This document shows positions 4,576-56,194 of a DNA stretch of 64,000 bases, piece after piece. Made by a program: the position numbers and the translations under genes. Numbering within the stretch: position 1 is the first letter of the stretch; every line of letters begins with the position of its first letter. Origin of the DNA: Candidatus Bathyarchaeota archaeon (GTDB lineage: Archaea > Thermoproteota > Bathyarchaeia > TCS64); the NCBI GenBank assembly GCA_016783455.1, contig JADHWN010000011.1:1-64000 (forward strand). Direction: 5' to 3'. The notes under the pieces are model-generated. The model was not told the origin of the DNA and did not search any database. It saw only the letters and a program-made list of their open reading frames with translations.

Positions 4576-5685
4576 CTAACCCAGCCCCGCTACCAGCCCC
4601 CGCCGCACACCCCGGACCCGCGCCACCAACCCACGCGCCCCCTCCACCAGCCCCTCAACCGCCCCCTCATCCAGCCCCCTCAACCCGAAGACATCCAGAG
4701 CACTCTCATACACCTCACGCCCACCCCCCAGACCACCCAACGCCCTGAACAGACAAGTATAATCAAACCGATCCCCCACCTTCGCCGAGGCCACCCAACC
4801 AAACCCCTCCAGCAACGGAAGCAGACGCCCCCGCAGATACGCGACCGCCCCCACCGGGTCACACCCCCCCAGCATCTCCCCCGAACGCCCCAACGCAAGC
4901 CCCAGCATCAACGGATCGGCGGAGTACCCCAGCTCAACCCTCAGCCGCTCATGGAGACCACCCAGCACATAGCTATTCTCCCCCAGGAAACGCAGCACCC
5001 GCCCCCACACCTCCTCGAAGCACCCCCTGACCTCGCTGGCCCCCTCCCCGTCTACACCCCCGTACCGCCCCACCTCCAAAAAGCCCCTGTAGACATCGAG
5101 CAACCCAAACATCTCACAGGCCCGCCGCAGGTCCCAGACAGAGGAATCGAGCCCCGGCGAGAACCCCGCCAAATCGACGAGAACGAGACCCGCAGAGGCC
5201 GCGCCCATCTCGGCGAAGACACAAGCAGTCTCAAAATCACCCCGGCTCAACGCCGAGTTGATCCTGCTCAGGTATATCTCCGCAGCGGACAGGTACCCCT
5301 CGACCCTCATCTCAACCCTCCCAGGGCTCCGATAGCTCACCTCCAGGAAGCCCTGAGCCCTTCGCAGCATACCCCCAGGATCGTGCATGATCATCGCCCC
5401 ATGCACCTTATGATCCACCTCAGGGCTCACCACCTCCCCCACCCAGCTCAGGGGCACCCTGTCCACGTCCATGACGAGCCCCCGGTACTCCCGAAGCTCC
5501 CGGCACTCGTAGTCACGACCAGACCAGTCCACCACAAGGACATCAATGCCGCTCGACCCGGAAGCCTCGTACCCCACCCAGCCCCCGAAGAGCCCCACGG
5601 ACGCCACCGATTCATCCCTGCCCAGCTCATCGACGAAGGAGTTGATGATCGAGCGGAACTCCCTAGCAGAAACGGTCACGCCCAC
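4576..5685 (-). CDS. Degenerate nucleotidyltransferase-like protein with helical C-terminal region
   Basis: 369 aa, GTG start. Residues 25-75 resemble a nucleotidyltransferase core: GLFGGWVGYEASGSSGIDV aligns with the GSxARGxxxxxSDxD motif. However, the serine of GS is Gly and the first catalytic aspartate is Gly46; only D48 and a later DVD remain. Residues 130-369 are helical without a recognised domain, possibly HEPN-like. Composition is odd: the coding strand is very rich in G and T, giving many Gly, Val, Leu and Arg. The same skew continues into the repeat region downstream. Function unknown; activity as a transferase is doubtful. Confidence 0.6.
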   Translation of the reverse strand: MGVTVSAREFRSIINSFVDELGRDESVASVGLFGGWVGYEASGSSGIDVLVVDWSGRDYECRELREYRGLVMDVDRVPLSWVGEVVSPEVDHKVHGAMIMHDPGGMLRRAQGFLEVSYRSPGRVEMRVEGYLSAAEIYLSRINSALSRGDFETACVFAEMGAASAGLVLVDLAGFSPGLDSSVWDLRRACEMFGLLDVYRGFLEVGRYGGVDGEGASEVRGCFEEVWGRVLRFLGENSYVLGGLHERLRVELGYSADPLMLGLALGRSGEMLGGCDPVGAVAYLRGRLLPLLEGFGWVASAKVGDRFDYTCLFRALGGLGGGREVYESALDVFGLRGLDEGAVEGLVEGARGLVARVRGVRRGLVAGLG

Positions 5686-5878: not shown

Positions 5879-5983
5879 CATCCGGAAAGATTGGCTGTGC
5901 TCCAAGTGATCAGATAATTCCGAAATAGTTTATGAAGAAGATTCTGAGATGGAATATAACTCGCGTATATATTGAGGGAGAAC

Positions 5984-6910
5984 ATGTCAAGAAGAAGAGA
6001 GAAGCTCCTGAATGAGAACGTCTGCTCGGAGTGCGGGGGCAGCACCCTTATTCATGACGATGAGTCGGGCGAGGTCATCTGCGGGAGCTGCGGTCTCGTC
6101 ATCACGGAGTCCGTTATCAACAAGGGCCCCGAGTGGAGGGCCTTCACCCAGAGCGAGAAGGAGTCAAGGAGCCGTGTCGGCGTCCCCCTCTCATTCGCAG
6201 TCCACGACAAGGGCCTAACCACCATGATAGGCCGGGTCGGCAGGGACGCCTTCGGGCGCAAGATCCCCCTGAACACGAAGCTTCAGATGCTCCGCCTGCG
6301 AAAGTGGCAGATAAGGTCGAGGGTTCACTCCTCGGTGGACCGGAACCTCGCCCAGGCCATGGCAGAACTTGACAGGCTCACCGACAAGCTCCACATCCCG
6401 CCGCCCATCAAGGAGAAGGCGGCCGTAATCTACCGCAAGGCCCTCGACAAGGGACTTGTCCGGGGAAGATCCATCTCGGCCATTGCCGCAGCCTCCCTGT
6501 ACGCCGCGTGCAGGATCACCCAGACACCGAGGACCCTCCGGGAGCTTGCCCAGCACAGCCCCATCGACAAGAAGGACATCGCCCGATGCTACAGACTCCT
6601 ACTGAGGGAGCTGAGCCTCCAGATGCCCATCCCAGCAGCCCAGCTCAGGGTCCCCAAGATCGCCTCAAAGGTGAGAGTCGGCGAGAGGACCCAGCAGAAA
6701 GCAGTGGAGATCCTCAGAGAGGCGGAGAGGCTCAAGACGACGGCCGGTAAGGACCCCATGGGTTTGGCCGCCGCAGCGCTCTACATCGCCTGCGTCATGA
6801 ACGACGAGAAGCGCACGCAGAAGATGATAGCCGACGCAGCAGGGGTGACGGAGGTCACCATACGCAACCGCTACAAGGGCCTCAAGGAAGCCCTTAATCT
6901 GGAGATATAG
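5984..6910 (+). CDS. tfb: Transcription initiation factor B (TFB), copy 1
   Basis: 308 aa from the ATG at 5984, preceded by a GAGGGAG ribosome-binding site. An in-frame TTG at 5972 would overlap that site and is less likely. The N-terminal zinc ribbon has CSECGG and CGSCG pairs, followed by the B-finger (GPEWRAF) and linker. Two cyclin repeats follow, ending in the recognition helix TEVTIRNRYK. TFB recruits RNA polymerase to TBP-bound promoters and contacts the BRE. Unlike the second copy at 16347 it stands alone and lacks ribosomal or RNP neighbours, so it may serve a subset of promoters. Confidence 0.95.
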   Translation: MSRRREKLLNENVCSECGGSTLIHDDESGEVICGSCGLVITESVINKGPEWRAFTQSEKESRSRVGVPLSFAVHDKGLTTMIGRVGRDAFGRKIPLNTKLQMLRLRKWQIRSRVHSSVDRNLAQAMAELDRLTDKLHIPPPIKEKAAVIYRKALDKGLVRGRSISAIAAASLYAACRITQTPRTLRELAQHSPIDKKDIARCYRLLLRELSLQMPIPAAQLRVPKIASKVRVGERTQQKAVEILREAERLKTTAGKDPMGLAAAALYIACVMNDEKRTQKMIADAAGVTEVTIRNRYKGLKEALNLEI

Positions 6911-16342: not shown

Positions 16343-16346
16343 CTTG

Positions 16347-17264
16347 ATGAAAAGTGAAAAGATCACAAAGTGTCCCGAATGCGGCAACGCTGACCTCATC
16401 CGGGACTACGAGGCCGGAGAACTCGTCTGCGAGGGCTGCGGCATGGTCATCTCGTCCACCCTCTTCGACCATGGGCCCGAATGGCGGGCCTTCGACGAGG
16501 AGCAGAGGGAGAAGCGAACAAGGGTCGGAGCGCCCCTGACGTGGACAATCCACGACAAAGGCCTGTCGACGATAATCGACTGGCACGACAGGGACGTCTA
16601 CGGCCGGAAGCTCAAGCCGGACCAGAAGGCGAGGGTCTACAGACTCAGGAAGTGGCACCGCAGGTCCAAGGTCTCAGGCGCCACGGAAAGGAACCTGGCC
16701 TTCGCGCTCTCCGAGCTTACCAAGGTCGCCTACAAGCTCAACCTTCCTAAAAACGTCCTTGAGACTGCCTCCGTCATCTACAGGAAGGTCGTCCGGAAGC
16801 GACTCATCCGTGGCCGGTCCATCCAGGGCGTTGCGGCCGCTTCCATATACATGGCTTGCCGCCAGTGCAACATCATACGCACTCTCGAGGAGGTGGCAGC
16901 CGCTGCACACATCTCCAAGAAGGAGGGGGGTAGGAACTACCGCTTCCTCCTTCGGAAGCTCGAAACCCGTGTTCCCCCTGTCGACCCCACAAGCTACATC
17001 TCCAAGTTCGTCAACCAGCTAACCCTCTCCGGTGAGACCGAGAGCATCGCCATGCAGATCCTTGGACAGGCCATGGAGCTGAGGCTGACGAGTGGCAGGG
17101 GTCCAGCTGGAATTGCGGCTGCCGCTACTTACATCGCGAGCCTGCTGACCGACGAGAGGAGGACTCAGGGTGAGATCGCCAAGGGTGCCCACGTCACCGA
17201 GGTCACCATCAGGAACAGGTACAAGGAGCTGACCCAGAAGCTCAACATAGAGCTCGACATGTGA
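16347..17264 (+). CDS. tfb: Transcription initiation factor B (TFB), copy 2
   Basis: 305 aa from the ATG at 16347; the TTG immediately before is unlikely. Zinc ribbon CPECGN and CEGCG, B-finger GPEWRAFDEEQ, linker HDKGLSTIIDW, then two cyclin repeats ending TEVTIRNRYKEL. Cotranscribed with gar1 behind SRP19, the position of the housekeeping TFB in many archaea. It differs from copy 1 in the linker (DWHDRD against GRVGRD) and in many surface positions, so the two factors may select different promoters. Confidence 0.96.
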   Translation: MKSEKITKCPECGNADLIRDYEAGELVCEGCGMVISSTLFDHGPEWRAFDEEQREKRTRVGAPLTWTIHDKGLSTIIDWHDRDVYGRKLKPDQKARVYRLRKWHRRSKVSGATERNLAFALSELTKVAYKLNLPKNVLETASVIYRKVVRKRLIRGRSIQGVAAASIYMACRQCNIIRTLEEVAAAAHISKKEGGRNYRFLLRKLETRVPPVDPTSYISKFVNQLTLSGETESIAMQILGQAMELRLTSGRGPAGIAAAATYIASLLTDERRTQGEIAKGAHVTEVTIRNRYKELTQKLNIELDM

Positions 17265-22796: not shown

Positions 22797-23789
22797 TCAC
22801 GCGTTCTTGGGCCCTTGCTCCCGTAGGCCGTCTATCAGCTGGCAGGCCCTGCAGACTGTACCCGTCGTGGGCTCCCCGCATTTGGAGCAGGTCCCCATCA
22901 TCGTTGTTTCCCCCCTCTCCGGGGTGAGCTTTATGGCGGTCCTGTAGACCGTGAACATTGTGCCAGGTCGCGTAATCTCCATCCTGTTGAGGAACCCCCT
23001 GACGTCGTTCCGCATCGCCTCTCCGGTGTAGGGGCAGGGGAGCTCCTGGAACCTGAAGCCCTCCAGGTACGCGTAGAGGGCGGACTCCCTCTCAGGGACC
23101 TCGCAGTAGGGTTTTATCCTCCTCACGAAACCCGGGAGGTCGCTCCCCCCGGGGTTGACCCTGGAGAGGCTGTTGACGTCTCCCCGGAGCACGTTGAGGA
23201 GGGCCGTCTGGGCCATGTCGTCCAGAGTGTGGCCAGTCGCGAGCCTGTCCGCTTCCACTCTCATCGCCGCCTCGTTCAACGCCCGCCTCCTGAGGACGCC
23301 GCAGTAGGTGCACGCCCCGAGCTCCCTGGTGCTGGCTGCGATCTCGTCCATGGTCACCCCGAACAGCTCCTTGAACGAGATGACGAGGTGCTCCACGCCG
23401 AGGTCTCCGCAGGCCTCCGTGGCGATGGAGATCGCTTCGTCCCTGTACCCCCTCACCCCTTCGTCGATGGAGACCGCTATGATCTCGGCCTTCGGGTAGC
23501 TCCTCTCGATCTCCGCCAGTATGTGGAGGAGGCCCAAGCTGTCCTTGCCCCCCGAGACTCCCACGGCGACCCTGCTGTCATGCTCCAGCATCTCAAATCT
23601 GGCGATGGTCCTCTCCACCCTCTCCTTGAGGGACCTCTTGAAGCAGGTGGGGCATAGCCTCTCCCCGCTGTAGGGCCTGAAGTAGATGGAGTCGCGTTTG
23701 GCGCACTTTGTGCATACAGGGGATGTCTCGGTCAAGTCTGTCGATCGAACTCTGGTGGAGCCTGATATAAGTCCTACCCGTGGGCTCAT
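22797..23789 (-). CDS. tRNA 2-thiolation enzyme, TtuA/Ncs6 (CTU1) family
   Basis: 330 aa. The N-terminal zinc ribbon (CTKCAKR, CPTCFK) is followed by the ATP-pyrophosphatase PP-loop SGGKDSLG, ACTYCGVLRRRAL, RLATGHTLDDMAQT, and a C-terminal zinc ribbon (CSKCGEP, CRACQ). The Cys pair in CTYCG plus a later Cys probably hold a 4Fe-4S cluster, as in TtuA. It adenylates a tRNA uridine and inserts sulfur. It overlaps the upstream sulfur-carrier gene by 4 bp, which fits carrier-to-enzyme sulfur delivery. U34 or U54 as target cannot be decided from sequence. Confidence 0.9.
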   Translation of the reverse strand: MSPRVGLISGSTRVRSTDLTETSPVCTKCAKRDSIYFRPYSGERLCPTCFKRSLKERVERTIARFEMLEHDSRVAVGVSGGKDSLGLLHILAEIERSYPKAEIIAVSIDEGVRGYRDEAISIATEACGDLGVEHLVISFKELFGVTMDEIAASTRELGACTYCGVLRRRALNEAAMRVEADRLATGHTLDDMAQTALLNVLRGDVNSLSRVNPGGSDLPGFVRRIKPYCEVPERESALYAYLEGFRFQELPCPYTGEAMRNDVRGFLNRMEITRPGTMFTVYRTAIKLTPERGETTMMGTCSKCGEPTTGTVCRACQLIDGLREQGPKNA

Positions 23790-24082
23790 CCGCCGTGGGT
23801 CACGGATAGGAGGACCAGTCTGTCACCGTCCCTCAGGGGCGTCTCCAAGCCAAGCAGGTTGCCGACCTCGACCCCGTTCAGCAGGATGAGGGTGTTGGTG
23901 ACTGGGCTGAGCGTGTACGGGTCGAGGAGTGCACTGTCGAGGTCTCCCTCATGGGCCTCAAGGATTCTGTGGATGGCGTCCGAGACTATCGCGTTCTGGT
24001 TCAGTGTGATCTCCTGCTCCTCGCTGCCAGAGGCCTCCTTCAGGGGGCCCATCATCCTTGCCGTGACCCGTATCGAAGCCAT
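23786..24082 (-). CDS. Ubiquitin-like sulfur carrier (TtuB/SAMP/MoaD type)
   Basis: 98 aa from the ATG at 24082. A beta-grasp protein ending ...VLLSVTHGG; the C-terminal diglycine is the site of adenylation and thiocarboxylation. LILLNGVEV and TPLRDGDRLVLL are the conserved MoaD/ThiS strands. Translation is coupled to the downstream TtuA/Ncs6-type gene by an ATGA overlap, so it most likely delivers sulfur for tRNA thiolation. Archaeal relatives also modify proteins. The start is a few bases from the transcription start predicted by the shared TATA box. Confidence 0.88.
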   Translation of the reverse strand: MASIRVTARMMGPLKEASGSEEQEITLNQNAIVSDAIHRILEAHEGDLDSALLDPYTLSPVTNTLILLNGVEVGNLLGLETPLRDGDRLVLLSVTHGG

Positions 24083-24110
24083 GCTCAGTCTCCTCTCCTC
24101 GCCTTCGCAA

Positions 24111-24120
24111 CCTATAAATC
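24111..24120. promoter_or_regulatory. Single TATA element serving two divergent sulfur-carrier genes
   Basis: CCTATAAATC reads as a TATA box on both strands (CTATAAA / TTTATAG). It is about 27-30 bases upstream of both gene starts: ATG 24082 on minus, and TTG 24141/ATG 24150 on plus. No other TATA-like sequence lies in the 67-base gap, so one box may be used in both directions. Confidence 0.45.
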
Positions 24121-24149
24121 CCCTGCATCGGGGAGTAGATTTGAGCCTG

Positions 24150-24434
24150 ATGAGGGTAGAGGTCAAGTACTACGCCATGATCAGGGAGGCGACGGGGAGA
24201 CGGGTGGAGACCCTTGAGGTCCCCGAGGGCTCCTCAGTGGACGACCTGCTGGGCCTCCTCGTCGGGATGTACAAAGAGGGCCTCTCTAATTTTATCTACG
24301 ACGAGGAGAAGAGGGTCCGGGATTACCTCTCGTTCATGCTGAATGGTCTCAACGTCTACAGCTTGAAGGGGATGAGCACACCTCTTCGAGACGGCGACGT
24401 CTTCGCCATCCTGCCCCCTGTGGGGGGCGGCTGA
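24150..24434 (+). CDS. MoaD-type small sulfur carrier
   Basis: 94 aa from the ATG at 24150; a leaderless TTG at 24141 is an alternative. MRVEVKYYAMIREATGRR is the typical MoaD opening (RYFAxLRExxG), FMLNGLNVYS and TPLRDGDVFAILPPVGGG the last strands with a terminal Gly-Gly. It could be the molybdopterin synthase small subunit or a second SAMP. No molybdopterin genes are close by. It is divergent from the tRNA-thiolation carrier, which suggests paired expression. Confidence 0.85.
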   Translation: MRVEVKYYAMIREATGRRVETLEVPEGSSVDDLLGLLVGMYKEGLSNFIYDEEKRVRDYLSFMLNGLNVYSLKGMSTPLRDGDVFAILPPVGGG

Positions 24435-24471: not shown

Positions 24472-25353
24472 TCAGACGCTCTTATCGATCTCCACTTCTC
24501 CGTCCGAGGAGATGACGGCCTTCGCATGCCTCAGCGCCCAGCAGCTAATTACAACGCCGACTGGGAGGGAGGCCGGGTGCCTTGCCGCCATCTCGACGTG
24601 GAGGTCCAGAGCGGTTGGGCCCTCCCCGAGCCCCATGGCGCCTATACCGAGCTCGTTCACCTTCTCGAGGAGCTCCGACTCGATCGCAGCCACCTTTGGG
24701 TCCTCGCTCCTGATCCTGAAGGGCTTCAGCAGGGCCTCCTTGGCCAGTTTCATGCATATGTCCTCGCCGCCACCGATGCCGACCCCCACGAAGTAGGGCG
24801 GGCATCCCAGGGAGCCAGCGTTGGAGAGGGCCTCTATGACGAACTGTTTCACTCCCTTCATGCCCAGGCCTGGCTTGAGCATCCTGTGGGCAGCGATGTT
24901 GGTGCTCCCTCCACCCTTGGGCATGGCGATAAGCTCCAGGTCGTCCCCTTCGACGAGGTCGAAGTAGATTATGGGGACGTGGCCGTTGAGCCCGACGTTG
25001 TCCCTGGTGTTACCCTTGAACATGTCGACGGCGTTGGGCCTGAGGGGCACCTCCTCCGTGGCGCGCCTCGTGGCCTTGACGAGTATCTCCTTGACCTCGG
25101 ATCTGAGGGGGAACCCGTCTCCCACCTTCACCATGAAGGCGACGATACCCGTGTCTTGGCACATGGGCTTGGAGCCTTCCCTTGCGATGTCGACGTTCTC
25201 AAGGATGTTGGTGAGCTGAGCTTTGCCCACCGCTCCCTCCGTCTCCTCCATCGCCTCATCTATGACTTCGACGTACTCCGTCGGGAGCTCCGTGACGGCT
25301 ATCCTGAGGAGCTCGACGGCCGTGTCCTCCAATATCCTACCTATTTCCGTCAT
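24472..25353 (-). CDS. Fumarate hydratase class I, alpha subunit
   Basis: 293 aa from the ATG at 25353. Cluster cysteines in PMCQDTGI, SLGCPPYFVG and ISCWALRHAK; GGGSTNIAAHRML and KGNTRDNVGLNGHVPI are family blocks. With the beta subunit (2 bp upstream) it forms the oxygen-sensitive 4Fe-4S hydratase that interconverts malate and fumarate. L(+)-tartrate dehydratase has the same architecture, but the divergent fumarate-reductase and malic-enzyme genes favour fumarase. Confidence 0.9.
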   Translation of the reverse strand: MTEIGRILEDTAVELLRIAVTELPTEYVEVIDEAMEETEGAVGKAQLTNILENVDIAREGSKPMCQDTGIVAFMVKVGDGFPLRSEVKEILVKATRRATEEVPLRPNAVDMFKGNTRDNVGLNGHVPIIYFDLVEGDDLELIAMPKGGGSTNIAAHRMLKPGLGMKGVKQFVIEALSNAGSLGCPPYFVGVGIGGGEDICMKLAKEALLKPFRIRSEDPKVAAIESELLEKVNELGIGAMGLGEGPTALDLHVEMAARHPASLPVGVVISCWALRHAKAVISSDGEVEIDKSV

Positions 25354-25355
25354 CT

Positions 25356-25955
25356 TCAGCCCTCCATCTCGGCCATTATCTTCTCCATCCTGGCCGTGAC
25401 CAGCTCCTTGACGTCCTGGGTCATGTTGTTCCCGTGGGTGTCTATGGTGACTATCATGGGGCCGAAGTCCTCGACGTCGTAGACCCAGAGGCACTCGGGC
25501 ATTCCCAGCTCCTCGAGCCAGTGGACCTCCCGGACCTTCTTGATGCCCCGGGCGGCGAGGAGGGCCGCTCCCCCGGTGAAGGCCCCGTAGACGCATCCGT
25601 ACTCCTGGCAGGCCTTGGAGGTCCTGTCGCCCATTCCTCCCTTCCCGATGATTATGGCGGGGTGGAAAGTCTCGATGAAGTTGTCCTGGAATATCTCCAT
25701 CCTGGCCGATGTGGTGGGGCCGGCGGCGATGACAGTCCACTCTCCGTCTACCTTCTTCATGATGGGGCCGCAGTGGAACACCCCGACGCCCTTGAAGTCG
25801 ACGGGGGTCTTCTCTCCCTTCTCGTGGAGCTCCAGGGCCTTGAGGTGGGCCTCGTCCCTGGCTGTGATGACCGTGCCCGTTATGTAGACGAGGTCTCCCA
25901 TCTTGAGCTTGCGGATCTCGTCCTCGGGCACCGGGGTCTTGAGGTGGTAATCCAT
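25356..25955 (-). CDS. Fumarate hydratase class I, beta subunit
   Basis: 199 aa from the ATG at 25955; a TTG at 25985 would add ten residues. MGDLVYITGTVITARDEAH, GPTTSARMEIFQ and AIIGKGGMGDRTSKACQEYG are the substrate-binding signatures of the FumA C-terminal domain. First gene of the two-gene fum operon, divergent from hdrC with 104 bp between them. Confidence 0.9.
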   Translation of the reverse strand: MDYHLKTPVPEDEIRKLKMGDLVYITGTVITARDEAHLKALELHEKGEKTPVDFKGVGVFHCGPIMKKVDGEWTVIAAGPTTSARMEIFQDNFIETFHPAIIIGKGGMGDRTSKACQEYGCVYGAFTGGAALLAARGIKKVREVHWLEELGMPECLWVYDVEDFGPMIVTIDTHGNNMTQDVKELVTARMEKIMAEMEG

Positions 25956-25982
25956 CTGTGATCTTAAAGACTCACCCTGTAC

Positions 25983-26037
25983 CAATTTAAGTCATTTCAG
26001 AGCCCGGGAGGCACCTCTCTTAGATAAAAGATAAAAT
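25983..26037. promoter_or_regulatory. Divergent promoters of fumarase and the Hdr/fumarate reductase operon
   Basis: On the minus strand TTAAATTGG (25983-25991) lies about 28-36 bases before the fumarase start. On the plus strand AGATAAAAGATAAAAT (26022-26037) lies about 25-38 bases before the hdrC ATG. The head-to-head arrangement would allow one regulator to control both C4-acid operons. Confidence 0.45.
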
Positions 26038-26059
26038 CTACCGATACTACCCCTATGAG

Positions 26060-26479
26060 ATGTCAAACGGGACGTCCGAGCTCTACTTCACATTCAGACC
26101 GGAGAACGCCGCCTTAAAGGCTAAGATCGAGGAGCTGAGCGGGGAGAACATAGACCTATGCTTCCAGTGCGGCGCCTGCAGCTCTAGCTGCCCCCTCACC
26201 AGCGAGATGGACCTCCTGCCCTCCACGGTGATACGCTACGCCCAGCTTGGTATGGAGGAGGTACTGGGGTCGAAGACGCCCTGGATATGCATAACATGCT
26301 TCAACTGCGAGATCCGATGCCCAAGGGGCATAGACATAGCCAACGTGATGGAGGCCATCCGGGAGATGGTGCTGAGGACCAAGTACGACAAGTTCACACT
26401 GGACGAGCTCACGCCGGAGGAGCTGAGGGAGCTCCCCCAGATAGCCCTCATAAGCAACCAGAGGAAGCTGACCGCCTGA
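26060..26479 (+). CDS. hdrC: HdrC-like 4Fe-4S protein
   Basis: 139 aa. Two complete 4Fe-4S motifs: C34, C37, C40, C44 (CFQCGACSSSCP) and C77, C80, C83, C87 (CITCFNCEIRCPRG). This is the heterodisulfide reductase subunit C layout, soluble and without a membrane segment. It passes electrons between HdrA-type flavoprotein and the HdrB catalytic subunit. First gene of a six-gene cluster; hdrB follows 9 bases downstream with a GAGGTG site. Confidence 0.92.
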   Translation: MSNGTSELYFTFRPENAALKAKIEELSGENIDLCFQCGACSSSCPLTSEMDLLPSTVIRYAQLGMEEVLGSKTPWICITCFNCEIRCPRGIDIANVMEAIREMVLRTKYDKFTLDELTPEELRELPQIALISNQRKLTA

Positions 26480-26488
26480 GGTGGAAAG

Positions 26489-27373
26489 ATGAGACTGGCA
26501 TACTACCCCGGATGCACGATGAAGACGGACGCCAAGAACTTCGATGAGTCCACCTACTCCGCTGCTGAGGCGCTGGGCATTGAGCTCCTCGAGCCGACTA
26601 GGTGGAACTGCTGTGGGACAGTCCACGCCCTCGCGAAGGACAACGTCATGAACTACCTTGCGCCCATCCGAAACCTCATCAGGGTGGAACAGATGAACGA
26701 GGCGGAACTAGTCGACGACAAGAGGGTCGTAACCCAGTGCGCCATGTGCTATAACACCCTCAAGAGGGCCAACGCGGACGCCAAGGCCGACCCTGATAAG
26801 ATGGGGAAGATCAGGGACTTCATGGAGAAGGAGCCCAACTATCAGGGAAGCGTCAACGTCGTCCACATGCTTGAGTTAATCAAGGGGCTTGGCTGGGACG
26901 AGGTCAAGTCGAAGGTGGTTAAACCCCTCGACGGTCTCAAGGTCTTCCCGTACTATGGATGCCTCCTTCTCCGCCCTAGGGAGTACGGCATCGATGATCC
27001 CGACCATCCCACTGTCATGGAGGACCTTTTTGAGGCTCTGGGGGCTGAGGTCGTCGATAATCCGTACAAGGCCAAGTGCTGCGGGGCCTACCACGCGGTC
27101 CATCTGAAGGAGGTGGCTGCTGACCTGTCCTACAGGATACTTAGGCAAGCGCAGGAAGCCGGTGCGGATATAATTGTCACTGCGTGTCCCCTCTGCCAGT
27201 TCAACCTGGGGGACCGCCAGAATGAGATCAAGAAACATCAGAGGGAATTCGAGGGGATACCCGTGGTCTATTACACTCAATTAATGGCCCTCGCCTTCGG
27301 CAAGGAGGGGACGGGCTTCGAGCAGAACATACCGGACCCGGTTCCGGTTCTGGAGGAGAAAGGTCTACTTTAG
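26489..27373 (+). CDS. hdrB: HdrB-like catalytic subunit with two CCG domains
   Basis: 294 aa. Both cysteine-rich CCG motifs are complete: C9, C41-C42, C84-x2-C87 and C158, C197-C198, C233-x2-C236. In HdrB these bind two non-cubane [4Fe-4S] clusters that cleave the CoM-S-S-CoB disulfide; TfrB of methanogens has the same domain. The disulfide used here is unknown, since nothing in the window shows methanogenesis. Positioned between hdrC and the ferredoxin-like subunit. Confidence 0.93.
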   Translation: MRLAYYPGCTMKTDAKNFDESTYSAAEALGIELLEPTRWNCCGTVHALAKDNVMNYLAPIRNLIRVEQMNEAELVDDKRVVTQCAMCYNTLKRANADAKADPDKMGKIRDFMEKEPNYQGSVNVVHMLELIKGLGWDEVKSKVVKPLDGLKVFPYYGCLLLRPREYGIDDPDHPTVMEDLFEALGAEVVDNPYKAKCCGAYHAVHLKEVAADLSYRILRQAQEAGADIIVTACPLCQFNLGDRQNEIKKHQREFEGIPVVYYTQLMALAFGKEGTGFEQNIPDPVPVLEEKGLL

Positions 27374-27384
27374 GAGGAAATCAG

Positions 27385-28071
27385 ATGGGAGAAAACGAGT
27401 CCGAGATGGTAACGATCCACGTGATGGGGAAGAAGCACGAAGTGCCCGCCGACCTCACCATAATGAAGGCGATGGAGTACGCCGGTCACCAGTTCCGAAG
27501 GGGCGCCGGCTGCAGAGGCGGATACTGCGGCGCCTGCGCCGCCATGTACAGGGTGAAGGGGAGCTACAAGCTCGAGGGGGCACTGGCCTGCCAGAAGATA
27601 GTCGAGGACGGCATGTACATCGCTCAGATACCCTTCAGCCCAGCCGAGAAGATAACCTACGACCTGTCAGAGCTGAAGCCCGATGCCAACACCTTCCTCG
27701 AGTACTACCCCGAGATATCGAGGTGCCTCAGCTGCAACACGTGCACCAAGGCCTGCCCCCAGGACATCGAGGTCATGGACTATGTCCAGGCCTCCCTCAG
27801 GGGAGACGTAGAGGGGGCCGCCAGGCTCAGCTTCGACTGCATCGGCTGCGGGCTCTGTGCGGTGAGATGTCCCGCGGAGATCGTGCCATACAACGTGGGG
27901 CAGCTCGCAAGGAGGCTTAACAGCCGGTACGTGATAGGCCCGACGGAGCATGTCCTAAAGCGTGTGGGGGAGGTTGAGGCAGGGGAGTTCGACGCCGATA
28001 TCGACGAGCTAAAGAGGTCAGATAGGAAAACGCTTCAGAAGCGTTACGAAAGCAGGGAGGTGAAGCTGTGA
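27385..28071 (+). CDS. Fumarate reductase/TfrB-type iron-sulfur subunit
   Basis: 228 aa. An N-terminal plant-type [2Fe-2S] domain (C43, C48, C51, C69; CRGGYCGAC) is followed by two 4Fe-4S motifs (C114, C117, C120, C124 and C152, C155, C158, C162). Methanogen TfrB combines such a ferredoxin part with an HdrB-like CCG part; here the CCG part is the separate hdrB gene upstream. SdhB/FrdB normally has 2Fe-2S, 4Fe-4S and 3Fe-4S, whereas all ligands here suit 4Fe-4S. It overlaps the flavoprotein gene by 4 bp (GTGA). Start ATG with GGAGG. Confidence 0.9.
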   Translation: MGENESEMVTIHVMGKKHEVPADLTIMKAMEYAGHQFRRGAGCRGGYCGACAAMYRVKGSYKLEGALACQKIVEDGMYIAQIPFSPAEKITYDLSELKPDANTFLEYYPEISRCLSCNTCTKACPQDIEVMDYVQASLRGDVEGAARLSFDCIGCGLCAVRCPAEIVPYNVGQLARRLNSRYVIGPTEHVLKRVGEVEAGEFDADIDELKRSDRKTLQKRYESREVKL

Positions 28072-29708
28072 GCGGCTACCCCGAATACATGCAGGGCTTA
28101 CTCAAGCTGGTGGAGGAGACTAGACCTGATCGGGTTGGGAAGGCCCTCAGGGCGATGAACGCAGAGGAGAAAGAGCAGATCCTCCGAGACTGGCACCCCG
28201 ACTACAAGATGGACCAGAAACGGAAGCTAAAGATAGGCTCCAGCGCCGGGGAGCTCATGCCCCACGAGGTGGCCGACACCCTGGAAGCCCACCCCGTCAT
28301 TAAGCCCGGGGACATCGACCTTTCAAACGTCGTCTATGACGTGGACGTACTGGTCATAGGGGCCGGGGGAGCGGGCCTCAGCGCCTCCCTCACCGCTATC
28401 GAGCATGGCGTCGCCCCAGACAATGTGTTGATGATCCAGAAGCTCAGGCTGGGGGACGCTAACTCCAAGATGAGCCAGGGTGGGATTCAGGCAGCCGACG
28501 CTCCCGATGACAACCCCACAATCCACTACCTAGACGTCATCGGAGGGGGTCACTACGCCAACAAGCCCGACCTCGTGGAAGCGATGGTCAAGGAGGGGCC
28601 CGACGTCATCAAGTGGCACGAGGAGCTGGGTGTCACGTACGATAAGCTAGAGGACGGGACAATGCAGCTGGCCCCCGGAGGGGGGACTAGTAGGAAGAGG
28701 ATGCATAGCTGCAAGGACTACACCGGCCTCGAGATCACGAGGGTGCTCGTCGACGAGTTCATCAACAAGGAGATCTCCTACGTGGAGTTCACCTCGGCCG
28801 TGGAGCTCGTCATGGACGACAAGGGGCAGGTCGCCGGGGCGGTGCTCTGGGATATGGACCACGACGACTACACGGTCGCACGGGCCAAGTCGACGATACT
28901 CGCTACGGGAGGCTTCGGGAGGCTCCATATACAGGGCTTCGAGACCACCAACCACTATGGCGCAACCAACGATGGCGTGGTTATGGCCTACCACGTCGGA
29001 GCGAACCTCAGAGACTTAGACTCCACACAGTTCCACCCCACTGGAGCGGCATACCCCGCGCAGATAGTCGGGCAGCTATGCACCGAGAAGCTCCGGGCCC
29101 GCGGCGCTCAGCCCCTGAACAATGACGGGGTGCTCTTCGTCTACCCACTGGAGACAAGGGACGTCGAGGCCTCCGCCCTCATCAGGGAGTGCTACGGGAG
29201 GGAGAAGGGGATCGTCACGCCCACCGGGATGCGGGGGGTCTGGCTCGACACGCCCCTCATCGACGTCATCAACGGCGAGGGAACCATCGAGAGGGAGTTC
29301 GCCGCCATGTTCCGGACGTTCAACAAGTTCGGTATCGACATCCGCGAGGAGCCCATGCTAGTCTACCCGACGCTCCACTACCAGAACGGGGGCGTAGAGA
29401 TAAACGTGCAGTGCGAGACCAACGTCCCCGGGCTCTACGCGGCAGGCGAGGTCTGCGGAGGAATCCACGGCAAGAACAGGCTCATGGGCAACAGCCAGTT
29501 AGACCTATACGTCTTCGGACGGAGGGCCGGCAGGTTCTCCGCGGAGCGAGCCAAGACGGCGACCCTGGGCGATCTTACACTGGACCACTTGGACGTTTAC
29601 GAGAAGATGCTGGCTGATGCGGGGGTCGTGACGGACAGGAAGGCCCCGACCCTGCTCCCGGAGTACAGGGGAAAGAGGACCCTGGAACATCAGCTGAAGA
29701 TGCTTTGA
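28068..29708 (+). CDS. Fumarate reductase/succinate dehydrogenase-type flavoprotein (TfrA-like)
   Basis: 546 aa, GTG start. FAD-binding VIGAGGAGLSAS (about 97-108), SKMSQGGIQAA, active-site DSTQFHPTGA, TEKLRARGAQ, LHYQNGGVEIN and VPGLYAAGEVCGGIHGKNR mark the fumarate reductase/SdhA/TfrA family. Unusually, about 90 residues precede the FAD motif; relatives normally begin close to it. No membrane anchor (SdhC/D) is present, so the enzyme should be soluble, as is methanogen thiol:fumarate reductase. L-aspartate oxidase is the main alternative, but the operon argues against it. Confidence 0.9.
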   Translation: MSGYPEYMQGLLKLVEETRPDRVGKALRAMNAEEKEQILRDWHPDYKMDQKRKLKIGSSAGELMPHEVADTLEAHPVIKPGDIDLSNVVYDVDVLVIGAGGAGLSASLTAIEHGVAPDNVLMIQKLRLGDANSKMSQGGIQAADAPDDNPTIHYLDVIGGGHYANKPDLVEAMVKEGPDVIKWHEELGVTYDKLEDGTMQLAPGGGTSRKRMHSCKDYTGLEITRVLVDEFINKEISYVEFTSAVELVMDDKGQVAGAVLWDMDHDDYTVARAKSTILATGGFGRLHIQGFETTNHYGATNDGVVMAYHVGANLRDLDSTQFHPTGAAYPAQIVGQLCTEKLRARGAQPLNNDGVLFVYPLETRDVEASALIRECYGREKGIVTPTGMRGVWLDTPLIDVINGEGTIEREFAAMFRTFNKFGIDIREEPMLVYPTLHYQNGGVEINVQCETNVPGLYAAGEVCGGIHGKNRLMGNSQLDLYVFGRRAGRFSAERAKTATLGDLTLDHLDVYEKMLADAGVVTDRKAPTLLPEYRGKRTLEHQLKML

Positions 29709-29721
29709 CGAGTGAGACTCA

Positions 29722-32082
29722 ATGAGCGAGGACCTTAGAATCGGCGTCTGGGTGTGCGAGTGCGGGGGAAACATAAGCGACGTAGTGGAGGTGCCGAGCG
29801 TCGCCGATCAGCTGGAACCTGAAGTAGCGTACGTCCACAGGGAGCGCTATCTCTGCTCCAGCCCCTCGGTGGAGGCCATAAAGGCCGCCGTTGAGGAGCA
29901 TAAACTCGACAGAGTCGTCCTCGCATGCTGCACTCCCAATATGCATACTGAGACCTTCAGGAGCAACCTTGAGCAGGCAGGCATCAACTCGGCTCTTCTG
30001 GAGATAGTGAACGTCCGTGAGCAGTGCAGCTGGGTCCACAAAGAGGATCACGAAGGCGCCACACTCAAGACCCTGGACCTCATCAGGGGCGCGATTGCCC
30101 GGATCAAGGAGTCATCCCCCCTGGAGTCCAAGGTGATGGAGGTCTCGCCCGAGGTCCTCGTCATCGGTGCAGGAGTTGCCGGCATCACGACCAGCCTCAG
30201 GCTCGCGGAGTTCGGGATGAAGGTTCACCTCGTGGAGAAGCGCCCCAGCATCGGTGGCCACATGATCCAGTACCCTAAGGTCTTCCCTACTCTCGACTGC
30301 AGCCAGTGCATCCTGACCCCGAAGATGGCGAGTATCAACCAGAGCCGGAACATCGACCTCCTCACCTACGCGGAGATAAAGGAGGTCTCCGGGGTCCCGG
30401 GGGACTTCGACGTCAAGGTCTGGCTCAAGCCCCGGGGGGTCGACGTGGAGGCGTGCATAGGATGCGGCGACTGCACCCGGGTCTGCCCCATCTCGGTTCC
30501 CAGCGAGTTCAACGAGGGGCTCTCCCCGAGGAAGGCCGCCTACATACCGTTCCCCCAGGCGGTGCCCAGCGTCGCCACCATCGACATGGACCACTGCATC
30601 AAGTGTAACAGCTGCGTCAACGCCTGCCCGCCGAAGTGCATCAACCTCGACGACCCCGGGAAAGAGGTAGAGCTCAACGTGGGAGCGATTGTCCTAGCCA
30701 CTGGCTTCGAGCTCTATGACATCGGGAGCCTCGCCCAGTACGGTTATGGCAAGTACCAGAATGTGGTCACCAGCCTCGAGATGGAGCGCATCCTCGACGT
30801 CAACGGCCCCACTGGTAGCATGATTATCAATCCCAAGACCGGGGAGACCGCGAAGAGCGTATCCTTCGTCCTGTGCGCAGGCTCCAGGGACACCGAGGTC
30901 GGGAAGGCCCACTGCAGCCGGGTCTGCTGCCTCTACGCCCTTAAGCAGGCACAGCTCATCCGGGACAGGGGCATCGACGTCTGGATACACTACATCGACA
31001 TCAGGGCGCCCGGCCGCAGGTATGAGGAGTTCTACGCGGCCACCCAGGACAAAGGGGTCATGTTCGTCAAAGGGAAGGTCACTGAGATCGTCCCCGAGGG
31101 CGACAGGGTCCTCGTCAGGGGTGAGGACATGATGATCAACAGGATGGTGGAGAACCCCGCCGATCTGGTGGTGCTCTGCCCCCCCATAGTCACCACCGAG
31201 GAGACGTTGAAGCTGGCTGAGATGCTCCGGGTGCCCGTGGACGAGGACCAGTTCGTCCTTGAGCGCCACCCCAAGCTTGACCCCCTGGCCACCAAGAGGG
31301 ACGGGGTCTTCGCAGCCGGGGCAGTCATCGGCCCCAAGGACATCCAGTCCACCACTGCGGAGGCAGAGGGCGCCGCCATGAAGGTCGTCAACTTTCTCTC
31401 AGGCGAGAGGATGATAGAGCCCAACAAGGCCTACCTCGCACACTCCGACCTCTGCGACGGCTGCGGAGAATGCGTCGACGTCTGCCCCGAGAACGCCATC
31501 AGGCTTGTCGGCGGGAAGCCCGTGATCAACGAGATTATGTGCAGCGGCTGCGGGGCCTGCATCCCGGCTTGCCCCCAGAACGCCTTAGACCAGCAGGGGC
31601 TGACGGACGCCCAGCTCAAGGCCCAGATAAGGGGTCTCCTGGAGTCCTCCACAGCCGAGGTCAAGATACTCGCCTTCGTGGAGAGGGCGGTTGCCTACAC
31701 GGCTGTGGACCTCGCTGGACTGGCAAGGTTGAGCTACCCGAGCAGTATCCGTATCATACCTCTGCCCTCCCTCGCCAGGCTGAAGCTGGAACACCTGCTC
31801 CACGCATTCGCATACGGCGCAGACGGGATCATGCTCCTGGAGGCTCCGGAGCACGAGGGACCCTACGGCTCTGCCCATGTCGTCTCGGAGGAGAGGGCCG
31901 ATGACTACAAATGGGAGCTCGAGGACTACGACGTCGACAGCGTCCGCCTCTGGTTCAGCCGTGTCTACGTCCCCGATTGGAGGAAGCTGGAGCTGGTCTT
32001 CAACACGTTCCACAACATGATCGAGGACGAGGGCCCCGTGGAGGACGAGGTCCGAGAAGTATTGAAAGAGAAGTTAGGATAA
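29722..32082 (+). CDS. hdrA: HdrA with fused, cysteine-less MvhD-like domain
   Basis: 786 aa. The N-terminal CECGGNISDVV and REQCSWVHKE region is followed by an FAD/thioredoxin-reductase-like core (VIGAGVAGITTSLRLAE near 147). Four ferredoxin motifs are seen (CIGCGDCTRVCP, CIKCNSCVNACP, CDGCGECVDVCP, CSGCGACIPACP). HdrA is the flavin-based bifurcating subunit. Residues about 645-786 align with MvhD/FlpD (AVDLAGLARLSYPSSIRII; HAFAYGADGIML), but all [2Fe-2S] cysteines are gone. No hydrogenase or formate dehydrogenase gene accompanies it. Confidence 0.93.
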   Translation: MSEDLRIGVWVCECGGNISDVVEVPSVADQLEPEVAYVHRERYLCSSPSVEAIKAAVEEHKLDRVVLACCTPNMHTETFRSNLEQAGINSALLEIVNVREQCSWVHKEDHEGATLKTLDLIRGAIARIKESSPLESKVMEVSPEVLVIGAGVAGITTSLRLAEFGMKVHLVEKRPSIGGHMIQYPKVFPTLDCSQCILTPKMASINQSRNIDLLTYAEIKEVSGVPGDFDVKVWLKPRGVDVEACIGCGDCTRVCPISVPSEFNEGLSPRKAAYIPFPQAVPSVATIDMDHCIKCNSCVNACPPKCINLDDPGKEVELNVGAIVLATGFELYDIGSLAQYGYGKYQNVVTSLEMERILDVNGPTGSMIINPKTGETAKSVSFVLCAGSRDTEVGKAHCSRVCCLYALKQAQLIRDRGIDVWIHYIDIRAPGRRYEEFYAATQDKGVMFVKGKVTEIVPEGDRVLVRGEDMMINRMVENPADLVVLCPPIVTTEETLKLAEMLRVPVDEDQFVLERHPKLDPLATKRDGVFAAGAVIGPKDIQSTTAEAEGAAMKVVNFLSGERMIEPNKAYLAHSDLCDGCGECVDVCPENAIRLVGGKPVINEIMCSGCGACIPACPQNALDQQGLTDAQLKAQIRGLLESSTAEVKILAFVERAVAYTAVDLAGLARLSYPSSIRIIPLPSLARLKLEHLLHAFAYGADGIMLLEAPEHEGPYGSAHVVSEERADDYKWELEDYDVDSVRLWFSRVYVPDWRKLELVFNTFHNMIEDEGPVEDEVREVLKEKLG

Positions 32083-32152: not shown

Positions 32153-33538
32153 TTGTTATATATGCCACCCATGCAAGTTATTAGATGGATTTTGAGCGAG
32201 AAAGTCGATACTGATGAACTCTTAGCCAAGGCCTCAAAGTGGAGCAAGATAGGGCCCCCTTACCACGCGTTCTACAGGGGGAAGGTGGAGGTGATGCCCA
32301 AATGCGCGATACGCAGCCTCCAGGACTTCTCCATCTGGTACACGCCCGGGGTAGCCCAGGCCTGCCGTGAGATAGAGGCGGACCACGAGAAGGCCTTCGA
32401 GCAGACCAGCAAGTGGAACTATGTTGCGGTGGTCTCCGACGGGACCCGAGTCCTGGGCCTAGGGGATATCGGCGGCCAGGCAGGGATGCCGGTAATGGAG
32501 GGGAAGGCCCTCATCTTCAAGTACCTCGGCGGTGTGGACGCGTTCCCCATCTGCCTCGCGACCAAGGACCCGGAGGAGGTGATCCAGGCCGTCAAGTGGA
32601 TCGAGCCCAGCTTCGGAGGGATCAATCTTGAGGACTTCTCCAAGCCCAAGTGCTTCTACATATTGGACCGCCTCAGGAAGGAGATGCCCATACCCGTCTG
32701 GCACGACGACCAGCAGGGGACCGCCGCCGTCATCCTCGCCGGGGTCATCAACGCCCTCAAGCTTGTGGGGAAGAAGATGGACGAGGCGCAGTTCGCGATC
32801 GTCGGCAGCGGCTCAGCCAACACTAGGACCTATTACGTCCTCGAGGCAGCCGGCGTGAACCCGAAGAACGTCATCATGGTCGACAGCACGGGGATAATCG
32901 CCCAGAGCCGCGAGGAGCTTGAGGGCACGTACAAGTGGGATCTGGCCCTCAAGACGAACGCTGAAGGCAGGACGGGAGGAATCAAGGAGGCCCTGGAAGG
33001 GAGCGACATATGTATCGCCGCCTCGAAGCCAGGACCTGGCACTATAAAACCAGAGGAGGTCTCCGGAATGGCCGACGACGCGATCCTGTTCGCCTGCGCC
33101 AACCCTGTGCCCGAGATCTGGCCCTGGGAGGCGAAGGAGGCAGGGGTGAAGGTGATGGCCACCGGTCGCTCCGACTTCCCGAACCAGGTGAACAACAGCT
33201 TAGTGTTCCCCGCTATCTTCAGGGGGGCCCTCGACGTGCGGGCGAAGACCATCACCGACGAGATGTGCATCGCGTCGGCCCAGGAGCTCGCCAAGTACGC
33301 TGAGGACAAGGGACTCACGGATGAGTACATCATCCCCTCAATGAGCGAGTGGGAGATATACCCCCGCCAAGCCGTCGCCGTAGGTCTGAAAGCCGTTGAG
33401 CAGGGGATCGCTAGGAGGAAGCTGAGCAGGCAGGAGCTCTACGAGCACGCTGAGTATATCATCAAGAGGACCCAGGACATCGTGGCGCTGCTGATGAAGC
33501 AGGGGTACATCGCCGCGCCTCCTCCCGAGCCTACATAG
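32153..33538 (+). CDS. NAD(P)-dependent malic enzyme
   Basis: About 450-461 aa. WYTPGVAQACREIE, VSDGTRVLGLGDIGGQAGMPVMEGKA, the metal/catalytic VWHDDQQGTAAV and ACANPVPEIWPWEA are diagnostic. It oxidatively decarboxylates malate to pyruvate. The start is uncertain: an AGGAGG site 5 bases before TTG 32153 favours that codon, and ATG 32162 is next. It follows hdrA by 70 bp; an imperfect palindrome around GTCATGAC lies in the gap, so it may be partly separate from the upstream operon. With fumarase it connects pyruvate to the fumarate module. Confidence 0.93.
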   Translation: MLYMPPMQVIRWILSEKVDTDELLAKASKWSKIGPPYHAFYRGKVEVMPKCAIRSLQDFSIWYTPGVAQACREIEADHEKAFEQTSKWNYVAVVSDGTRVLGLGDIGGQAGMPVMEGKALIFKYLGGVDAFPICLATKDPEEVIQAVKWIEPSFGGINLEDFSKPKCFYILDRLRKEMPIPVWHDDQQGTAAVILAGVINALKLVGKKMDEAQFAIVGSGSANTRTYYVLEAAGVNPKNVIMVDSTGIIAQSREELEGTYKWDLALKTNAEGRTGGIKEALEGSDICIAASKPGPGTIKPEEVSGMADDAILFACANPVPEIWPWEAKEAGVKVMATGRSDFPNQVNNSLVFPAIFRGALDVRAKTITDEMCIASAQELAKYAEDKGLTDEYIIPSMSEWEIYPRQAVAVGLKAVEQGIARRKLSRQELYEHAEYIIKRTQDIVALLMKQGYIAAPPPEPT

Positions 33539-55846: not shown

Positions 55847-56194
55847 TTATTTTAGGATCTTTATCTTCGAGGGCTCGACCTGCTCCTCAAGTAGGCCGGT
55901 CAGCGAGACAGCGCGTCCCTCGATCTGGGTTATCTTCTTCCTGGCGCCGTCTGAGAAGGAGTGTGCGGCGACGGTGACGGGGTGGTCGAGTGCGCCCGAT
56001 GCGAGGACCTTCCCCGGGACGGCGACGATGTCCCCTAGCTGGGTGTGCCTGTTGATCCTGCTTAGGTTCACGGATGCCCTTCTCCTCTTGGGCTTGTCCA
56101 GCCCCTCCGCCAGGGCGGCCCAGATGTTCTGACCGCTCTTCCTCGATGCGGCCTTGAGTGCCTTTATCGTCTCCTTGAGCTGTGGATTCATCAT
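55847..56194 (-). CDS. rpl18e: 50S ribosomal protein L18e
   Basis: 115 aa. RRRASVNLSRINRHTQLGDIVAVPGKVL (blocks VNLSRINRHT and GDIVAVPGKVL) and HPVTVAAHSFSDGARKKI are diagnostic for L18e/L15-type proteins. The start overlaps the rpoD stop by ATGA. It is the last gene of the S13-S4-S11-RpoD-L18e operon; the L13 and S9 genes that usually follow in archaea are absent here. Confidence 0.95.
   Translation of the reverse strand: MMNPQLKETIKALKAASRKSGQNIWAALAEGLDKPKRRRASVNLSRINRHTQLGDIVAVPGKVLASGALDHPVTVAAHSFSDGARKKITQIEGRAVSLTGLLEEQVEPSKIKILK

Follow-up and report, generated by a model that had tools for sequence, protein, structure and literature searches.

We analyzed a 64 kb stretch of DNA (the window) from a member of the Bathyarchaeia (host assembly G000, genome 75% complete), in which five contiguous genes at 26060-32082, ordered hdrC-hdrB-FeS-flavoprotein-hdrA, combine the subunits of a heterodisulfide reductase (Hdr) with an iron-sulfur (FeS) subunit and a flavoprotein (Fp) of the fumarate reductase type. 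The operon is real, conserved and functionally coherent, and it probably encodes one soluble, quinone-independent, Hdr-fed fumarate reductase in which HdrB would act as a relay. An original prediction, made from the letters of the window, had likewise proposed one soluble unit of Hdr and fumarate reductase, and the conserved order and recurrence of the genes argue for it. All five open reading frames (ORFs) were located exactly at the positions it had given, with intergenic gaps of, in order, 9, 11, -4 and 13 bp, in agreement with its description of gaps of at most 13 bp and one 4-bp overlap, and profile searches with Pfam and NCBIfam confirmed the domain assignments of all five proteins. It had overlooked the FlpD/MvhD domain of HdrA and the genes on either side, those for fumarase (upstream, divergent) and for malic enzyme (downstream). 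The operon comprises the following features (lengths in amino acids, aa):

26060..26479, plus strand: HdrC, 139 aa; two CxxCxxCxxxCP [4Fe-4S] motifs, C34-C44 and C77-C87
26489..27373, plus strand: HdrB, 294 aa; two CCG domains; ten Cys for two non-cubane clusters
27385..28071, plus strand: FeS subunit, 228 aa; plant-type [2Fe-2S] site (C43, C48, C51, C69) and two [4Fe-4S] sites
28068..29708, plus strand: Fp, FrdA/TfrA-like, 546 aa; GTG start
29722..32082, plus strand: HdrA, HdrA2-like, type Ia, 786 aa; FAD domain; four CxxCxxCxxxCP [4Fe-4S] motifs
31666..32025, plus strand: C-terminal FlpD/MvhD domain of HdrA, residues 649-768 (PF02662, 77.7 bits)

The gene order is not due to chance. A block of eight genes, fumAB (divergent)-hdrCB-FeS-Fp-hdrA-malic enzyme, was intact in eleven further loci of one Bathyarchaeia order (L021, L027-L032, L034-L036 and L042), and in the loci of this order the arrangement was kept at about 58-97% identity; the closest public record, a Candidatus Bathyarchaeota metagenome-assembled genome (MAG), has a flavoprotein 93% identical to that of the window. 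A scan of public genomes yielded at least 579 Fp relatives, and the best 80, which were retained, were distributed over many archaeal and bacterial phyla. The loci were picked by flavoprotein similarity, and the counts therefore describe that family and not a random sample. FeS lay immediately upstream of Fp in 91/91 cases, and the 48 public loci whose upstream DNA reached 7.5 kb or more contained FeS (48), HdrA (45), HdrB (41) and HdrC (41). Thus, the five-gene order, which the original prediction had proposed to seek in other genomes and on whose shared occurrence it had staked itself, does recur. That HdrABC and the Fp/FeS pair are mere neighbours that function separately is highly improbable: the joint complex is deduced from genes, and L025 and a few short contigs have no hdrA nearby, yet the order is strict, two genes overlap by 4 bp, co-occurrence is repeated and conserved over many phyla, and a fused counterpart exists in TfrB.

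The flavoprotein has both the substrate-binding and the catalytic residues of the complex II flavoproteins. In an alignment, Fp H323, T339, E340, R364, H437 and R471 corresponded to E. coli FrdA H233, T245, E246, R288, H356 and R391, and these six fumarate/succinate residues were invariant in 95 sequences. The AlphaFold2 (AF2) model of Fp had a mean confidence score (pLDDT) of 86, and its best Foldseek match was E. coli FrdA (1kf6_A, E 9.7e-30). Fp carries an 88-aa N-terminal extension and lacks the C-terminal SdhA domain. Identity as L-aspartate oxidase (NadB) was excluded, as Gly204 occupies the site of NadB Glu121 and TIGR00551 gave 261 vs 453 bits. Nor did the operon match the MFR (SdhABE) type, with 163 vs 500 bits for SdhE and 179 vs 1100 for SdhA. 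The position of the histidine that binds FAD covalently is Asn132 in Fp and Asn in 95/95 sequences, and no Sdh_cyt anchor was found in the genome of the host, which sets the protein apart from membrane succinate:quinone and quinol:fumarate oxidoreductases (SQR/QFR). Three more Frd/AprA-type flavoproteins of 564-625 aa are encoded on contigs 10 and 17 of the host assembly (L136, L137), none of them reaching a family cut-off.

Non-covalent FAD in Frd/Sdh variants points toward fumarate reduction, and in E. coli Frd the loss of the covalent-FAD histidine impairs succinate oxidation. Because its FAD is predicted to be non-covalent, the fumarate-reducing direction is favoured for Fp: fumarate reduction is its likely activity, and succinate oxidation, which the original prediction had also allowed for, is disfavoured by the non-covalent FAD and by thermodynamics. 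An enzyme running in the oxidising direction, as a succinate dehydrogenase that confurcates electrons with those of reduced ferredoxin on an oxidative path to malate and pyruvate, could be continued by fumarase and malic enzyme, and the TfrA of Culexarchaeia has been interpreted in this direction (PMC9723716). However, the uniform Asn at the covalent-FAD position and a cost of +33 to +49 kJ/mol at standard potentials for succinate to NAD+ with the help of ferredoxin make this very unlikely.

The cluster ligands of HdrC, HdrB and FeS were complete, as had been predicted. The 8/8 Cys of the two [4Fe-4S] motifs of HdrC were invariant in 61 aligned sequences, the ten CCG Cys of HdrB in 72 (C9 judged on the 69 rows having a letter there), and the 12 Cys of FeS, for one [2Fe-2S] and two [4Fe-4S] clusters, in 85. 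HdrB and HdrC thus have the ligands for two non-cubane and two [4Fe-4S] clusters, respectively, that are expected of HdrABC, and all of HdrA, HdrB and HdrC scored under the HdrA/B/C equivalog cut-offs of NCBIfam; for HdrB the top models were the SdhE/MFR anchor (163 bits) and HdrB (154 bits), with every model below its cut-off. The original prediction had recognized both halves of a thiol:fumarate reductase (Tfr). The FeS/Fp pair is indeed present, but FeS, which resembles SdhB and the N-terminal part of TfrB, covers only the [2Fe-2S] half of TfrB (40 bits vs a cut-off of 385), and Fp did not reach the TfrA equivalog NF004900 (311 bits, cut-off 718). The CCG half is absent from FeS and sits in the separate HdrB. 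On the TfrB profile NF004898, FeS aligned at 19-102, HdrC at 125-221 and HdrB at 262-476; this succession makes the three proteins counterparts of what is a single chain in methanogens, and the fused counterpart supports direct contact and electron passage along HdrC-HdrB-FeS-Fp. It suggests a direct relay of electrons from HdrC through HdrB to FeS.

The same fusion bears on the disulfide that the original prediction had placed at HdrB, and which we judge unneeded: HdrB is more likely an internal relay than a disulfide site, and the TfrB arrangement leaves a disulfide reaction possible. TfrB uses its HdrB-like domain for CoM-SH and CoB-SH. A thiol-linked enzyme in the manner of Tfr, whose HdrB oxidises thiols or reduces a disulfide, persulfide or protein disulfide while exchanging electrons with Fp, would make use of all ten Cys of a catalytic HdrB, which the protein possesses, and such a role was assumed by the authors who described Mnemosynella (PMC9635834). 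Against it, the block has no thiol partner gene, and HdrA and the hydrogenase partners in relatives make thiols unnecessary. Furthermore, methyl-coenzyme M reductase (MCR) was not found in 32 genomes including the host, which agrees with the predicted non-methanogenic host, and neither was ComA, the marker with which we followed up the suggested check for coenzyme M (CoM) synthesis; the ComA search also missed the Methanosarcina acetivorans control, and other CoM routes exist. These and all other absences reported for genomes come from single-family searches of the 75% complete host genome and its relatives. With neither MCR nor ComA found in these searches, we set aside a methanogen Tfr with CoM/CoB, and consider the broader thiol-linked enzyme distinctly unlikely.

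HdrA, where electrons would enter, combines conserved bifurcation residues with a degenerate C-terminal domain. It has the FAD domain and all four ferredoxin-type [4Fe-4S] motifs, and its K408 and E355 align with K409 and E356 of Methanothermococcus thermolithotrophicus HdrA (5odc_A), FAD-stabilising residues that are taken to mark bifurcating HdrA (PMC12054007). K408 was conserved in 67/68 and E355 in 64/69 aligned HdrA sequences. In the FlpD domain, in contrast to HdrA2- or MvhD-linked enzymes, the five [2Fe-2S] cysteines are replaced by E, V, S, A and G, near-uniformly throughout the order. The domain is otherwise 58-89% identical to that of the window across the clade and L049, and it keeps its secondary structure in the model (pLDDT about 71-96). 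At least 4/5 Cys were kept in 23/25 FlpD/MvhD domains at loci with Mvh genes and in only 8/32 at loci without Mvh, Flx or c16 genes, the loci not being independent of one another; degenerate FlpD domains also occurred in other lineages (L063, L092, L094). We read this pattern as the loss of a hydrogenase together with its electron entry, FlpD probably having been kept for docking or structure. Two unusual HdrA arrangements were seen along the way: a Thermoplasmata locus (L078, 2687-7545) in which two HdrC-HdrB pairs flank an HdrA with degenerate FlpD, near MvhG/MvhA and FeS-Fp, and a Bathyarchaeota MAG (L040, 10647-14408) with an HdrA ORF of ~1250 aa containing extra or duplicated HdrA segments.

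The usual cluster of other lineages reads kor-hdrA-mvhD-mvhGA-hdrCB-FeS-Fp-kor, joined in some cases by sucCD, fumarase and malic enzyme, and the 48 loci with sufficient upstream DNA contained MvhD (31), KorA (25), MvhA (23) and Flx-like genes (6). As such clusters are typical elsewhere, the operon of the window appears to be a pared-down representative of a family linked to hydrogenase or NAD(P)H. The window's order formed one clade of 20 rows with an SH-aLRT support of 100, nested among rows with Mvh or Flx modules. The donor-less form is thus likely, though not proven, to be derived; its exact root is unsure in this quick tree, which was rooted with E. coli SdhA, FrdA and NadB on very long outgroup branches and has moderate inner supports.

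We also looked for a donor outside the operon. Within the 64 kb window there were no MvhA/MvhG hydrogenase genes and no separate MvhD, Flx or Kor genes; this and the absence of an anchor bear out the prediction of an operon with neither hydrogenase nor membrane anchor. An MvhAG hydrogenase encoded elsewhere was rejected, as PF00374 was matched only weakly, in the N-terminal part, by the host and by the single-contig genome G002, and not at all by G017, also a single contig and 76% complete. A PF00374-type candidate on contig C79 matched NuoD/FpoD models, and its gene cluster encodes a membrane complex together with hydrogenase-maturation proteins; it is thus a group 4 type enzyme. The subunit genes of this NuoD/FpoD-type [NiFe] complex (L132, G000 contig 79, 314-9311) are interrupted by one for a GltD-like NAD(P)-binding protein, and the maturation genes adjoin them. 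A further Nuo/Fpo-like cluster (L135, G000 contig 71) adjoins a partial formate dehydrogenase-N alpha subunit whose N-terminus is signal-like, which suggests a respiratory chain. F420H2, the donor known from HdrA2 of M. acetivorans, was rejected as well: the F420 biosynthesis protein CofD was not found in the host, and among the 25 searched genomes of the order it turned up in G008 alone. A lone FrhB/FpoF-like F420 beta-subunit homologue (L131, 4861-5997, minus strand), conserved in G002 and G017, also genomes without CofD, was considered as a candidate donor adaptor; its gene is unlinked to the operon. Homologues of 2-oxoacid:ferredoxin oxidoreductase are present in the host genome. Among the relatives, an SdhC-type anchor was found in 1/32, G009, which encodes a membrane SdhC-SdhA-SdhB (L142, contig 3, 8164-10989) whose SdhA has the covalent-FAD histidine. 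The only such flavoprotein of G009 is this classical one (31% identical); a close homologue of the soluble Hdr-linked Fp was not found there, a pattern that fits functional replacement in a single case.

We propose that electrons enter at HdrA, travel by way of HdrC and the non-cubane HdrB clusters to FeS and then to the FAD of Fp, which would reduce fumarate to succinate; HdrB would resemble the CCG half of TfrB kept as a separate chain and plugged into HdrA. In relatives, MvhAGD hydrogenases or NAD(P)H modules appear to feed HdrA, and on this ground the family as a whole probably bifurcates electrons from the donor to ferredoxin and fumarate. In the window's order, the flavin of HdrA would receive its electrons from a two-electron carrier, either directly or with an unlinked protein in between. 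Such a donor is favoured because the bifurcation residues persist, and NAD(P)H would be the likeliest one because F420 synthesis was not found and NADH is reported for the Moorella MetVF-HdrABC-MvhD complex. Bifurcation at HdrA, as originally predicted, thus retains the conserved K408/E355 and the Mvh or Flx-like donors of relatives in its favour, while the FlpD [2Fe-2S] entry, an adjacent donor and F420 synthesis are missing; with NAD(P)H in the window's order we give it slightly less than an even chance. Taking -420 to -500 mV for ferredoxin and +33 mV for fumarate, standard-potential arithmetic gives about -49 to -33 kJ/mol for 2 NADH to ferredoxin and fumarate, -85 to -70 kJ/mol with H2 instead of NADH, and -87 to -103 kJ/mol for plain electron flow from ferredoxin to fumarate.

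The last of these values concerns a non-bifurcating ferredoxin:fumarate reductase, in which reduced ferredoxin would deliver all electrons through the ferredoxin-like clusters of HdrA to fumarate and FlpD would be merely structural. The lost FlpD cluster, the lack of a mid-potential donor in the operon, the 2-oxoacid:ferredoxin oxidoreductase homologues of the host and the ability of HdrA2B2C2 to accept ferredoxin (PMC5296606) would all be explained, at the price of wasting about 87-103 kJ/mol and of leaving the retention of K408 and E355 unaccounted for. We regard this as unlikely, but it ranks close behind NAD(P)H-driven bifurcation. Several points weigh against the soluble Hdr-fed fumarate reductase with a bifurcating HdrA that we prefer: no donor gene adjoins the operon in a host genome that is 75% complete, the loss of the FlpD cluster removes the known route for a mid-potential donor, HdrA revealed no NAD(P)H site, bifurcation residues are by themselves no proof of bifurcation, hdrCB-FeS-Fp of L025 has no adjacent hdrA so that HdrA is perhaps not always the partner, and the soluble complex is a prediction from genes and a predicted fold.

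More tentatively, and with rather less confidence than in the NAD(P)H-driven form, the operon may belong to a widespread, so far unrecognised bifurcating class in which fumarate reduction is the exergonic half, with exchangeable donors on HdrABC (MvhAG, Flx-like or none), a soluble FrdAB acceptor and 2-oxoglutarate:ferredoxin oxidoreductase as the low-potential user, the Bathyarchaeia form taking the hydride of NAD(P)H at HdrA without the [2Fe-2S] entry. If this is true, anaerobes that have neither quinones nor a membrane complex II could capture the large energy drop to fumarate (+33 mV) as reduced ferredoxin and use it to power ion pumping or the fixation of CO2 by 2-oxoglutarate synthase. 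Succinate formation by Bathyarchaeia, which are abundant in sediments, would be accounted for, and fumarate would join the few known acceptors of flavin-based electron bifurcation; electron intake by HdrA would have a natural test case in the donor-less form and its cluster-less FlpD.

The fumarase and malic enzyme genes are functionally linked to the five-gene operon and part of the same picture. Together with them, the complex would serve malate/fumarate metabolism, either as malate dismutation or as a reductive branch from pyruvate to succinate. The divergent layout around the intergenic region is kept in relatives, and malic enzyme starts 112 bp 3' of hdrA, with an alternative ORF opening at 32153:

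24472..25347, minus strand: fumarase alpha subunit (PF05681; TIGR00722 above cut-off), conserved neighbour
25356..25985, minus strand: fumarase beta subunit (PF05683; TIGR00723 above cut-off), conserved neighbour
25986..26059, no strand: intergenic region between the divergent fumarase genes and hdrC; holds TTAGATAAAAGATAAAATC, a candidate TATA-like element by eye
32195..33538, plus strand: malic enzyme (PF00390 and PF03949), conserved neighbour

Elsewhere in the window, an ORF without a Pfam match (4576-5685, minus strand) contains C-rich 12/24-bp tandem repeats, and strong GC and AT skew surrounds it at 4-6 kb. Two TFB (TFIIB) genes (5972-6910 and 16344-17264, plus strand) lie less than 11 kb apart, a TtuA-like protein is encoded beside two small ThiS/MoaD-like proteins (22797-24434, identified by eye only), and the RNA polymerase subunit Rpo3/D has a 4Fe-4S dicluster domain (56191-57114, minus strand).

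The idea of an Hdr-coupled fumarate reductase has already been proposed, whereas descriptions of the wide Mvh/Kor-linked family and of the donor-less archaeal form seem to be lacking. In the open-licence literature we found no description of a Mvh-Hdr-Frd-Kor family or of the cluster-less FlpD form, and for a named Hdr-fumarate-reductase complex only the proposals cited here. An Flx-Hdr-linked fumarate reductase was proposed for Pseudoclostridium thermosuccinogenes (Koendjbiharie and van Kranenburg preprint 2019, as cited in PMC7282089). In its 'succinate operon', as in the window, fumarase, Hdr and fumarate reductase genes lie together, and coupling of fumarate reduction to ferredoxin reduction was proposed. 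The bacterial system has an Flx NADH dehydrogenase, whereas Flx-like genes occur in six relatives but not in the window, whose HdrA has a cluster-less FlpD; the two flavoproteins are set side by side by description only. In gammaproteobacterial symbionts, clusters for the reductive tricarboxylic acid (rTCA) cycle have tfrAB, korABCD and flxABCD-hdrABC interspersed, and their authors propose that Hdr electrons pass directly to fumarate reductase and 2-oxoglutarate synthase (PMC6315080, PMC11636981). This is the module set of the relatives L072, L083 and L113; unlike these bacterial clusters with Flx, the window operon has neither donor nor Kor genes. In Mnemosynella, from whose genome locus L074 comes, Tfr is syntenic with an Hdr-like complex (PMC9635834). 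HdrABC as an exchangeable hub serving a non-disulfide reductase is also seen in the Moorella thermoacetica MetVF-HdrABC-MvhD complex, for which NADH-dependent activity is reported (as described in PMC7325909), and which differs in its terminal module, a methylene-tetrahydrofolate reductase, and in having MvhD. The MvhD-fused HdrA, the full HdrB and HdrC clusters and the K/E residues are shared with HdrA2B2C2 of M. acetivorans (PMC5296606) and with MvhADG-HdrABC; in the window, however, the FlpD cysteines are lost, F420 synthesis was not found in the host and fumarate reductase genes are added. Methanogen TfrAB is likewise soluble, with a TfrA-like flavoprotein and a TfrB whose three parts resemble FeS, HdrC and HdrB; it differs in that its profile cut-offs are unmet here, CCG sits in a separate HdrB, HdrA is in the operon, and searches of the host found neither MCR nor ComA. 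The FrdABCDE of Hydrogenobacter thermophilus (Miura 2008) is reportedly also soluble with five subunits and driven by NADH, a likeness by description only, and differs in that its genes are reported to be scattered. Finally, the operon shares with complex II (Sdh/Frd) and MFR/SdhABE the active site and fold of the flavoprotein, a [2Fe-2S]-type FeS subunit and, in the SdhE types, an HdrB-like subunit; unlike them, it lacks the anchor, the covalent-FAD histidine and the C-terminal Fp domain, and both cubane motifs of its FeS subunit are all-Cys.

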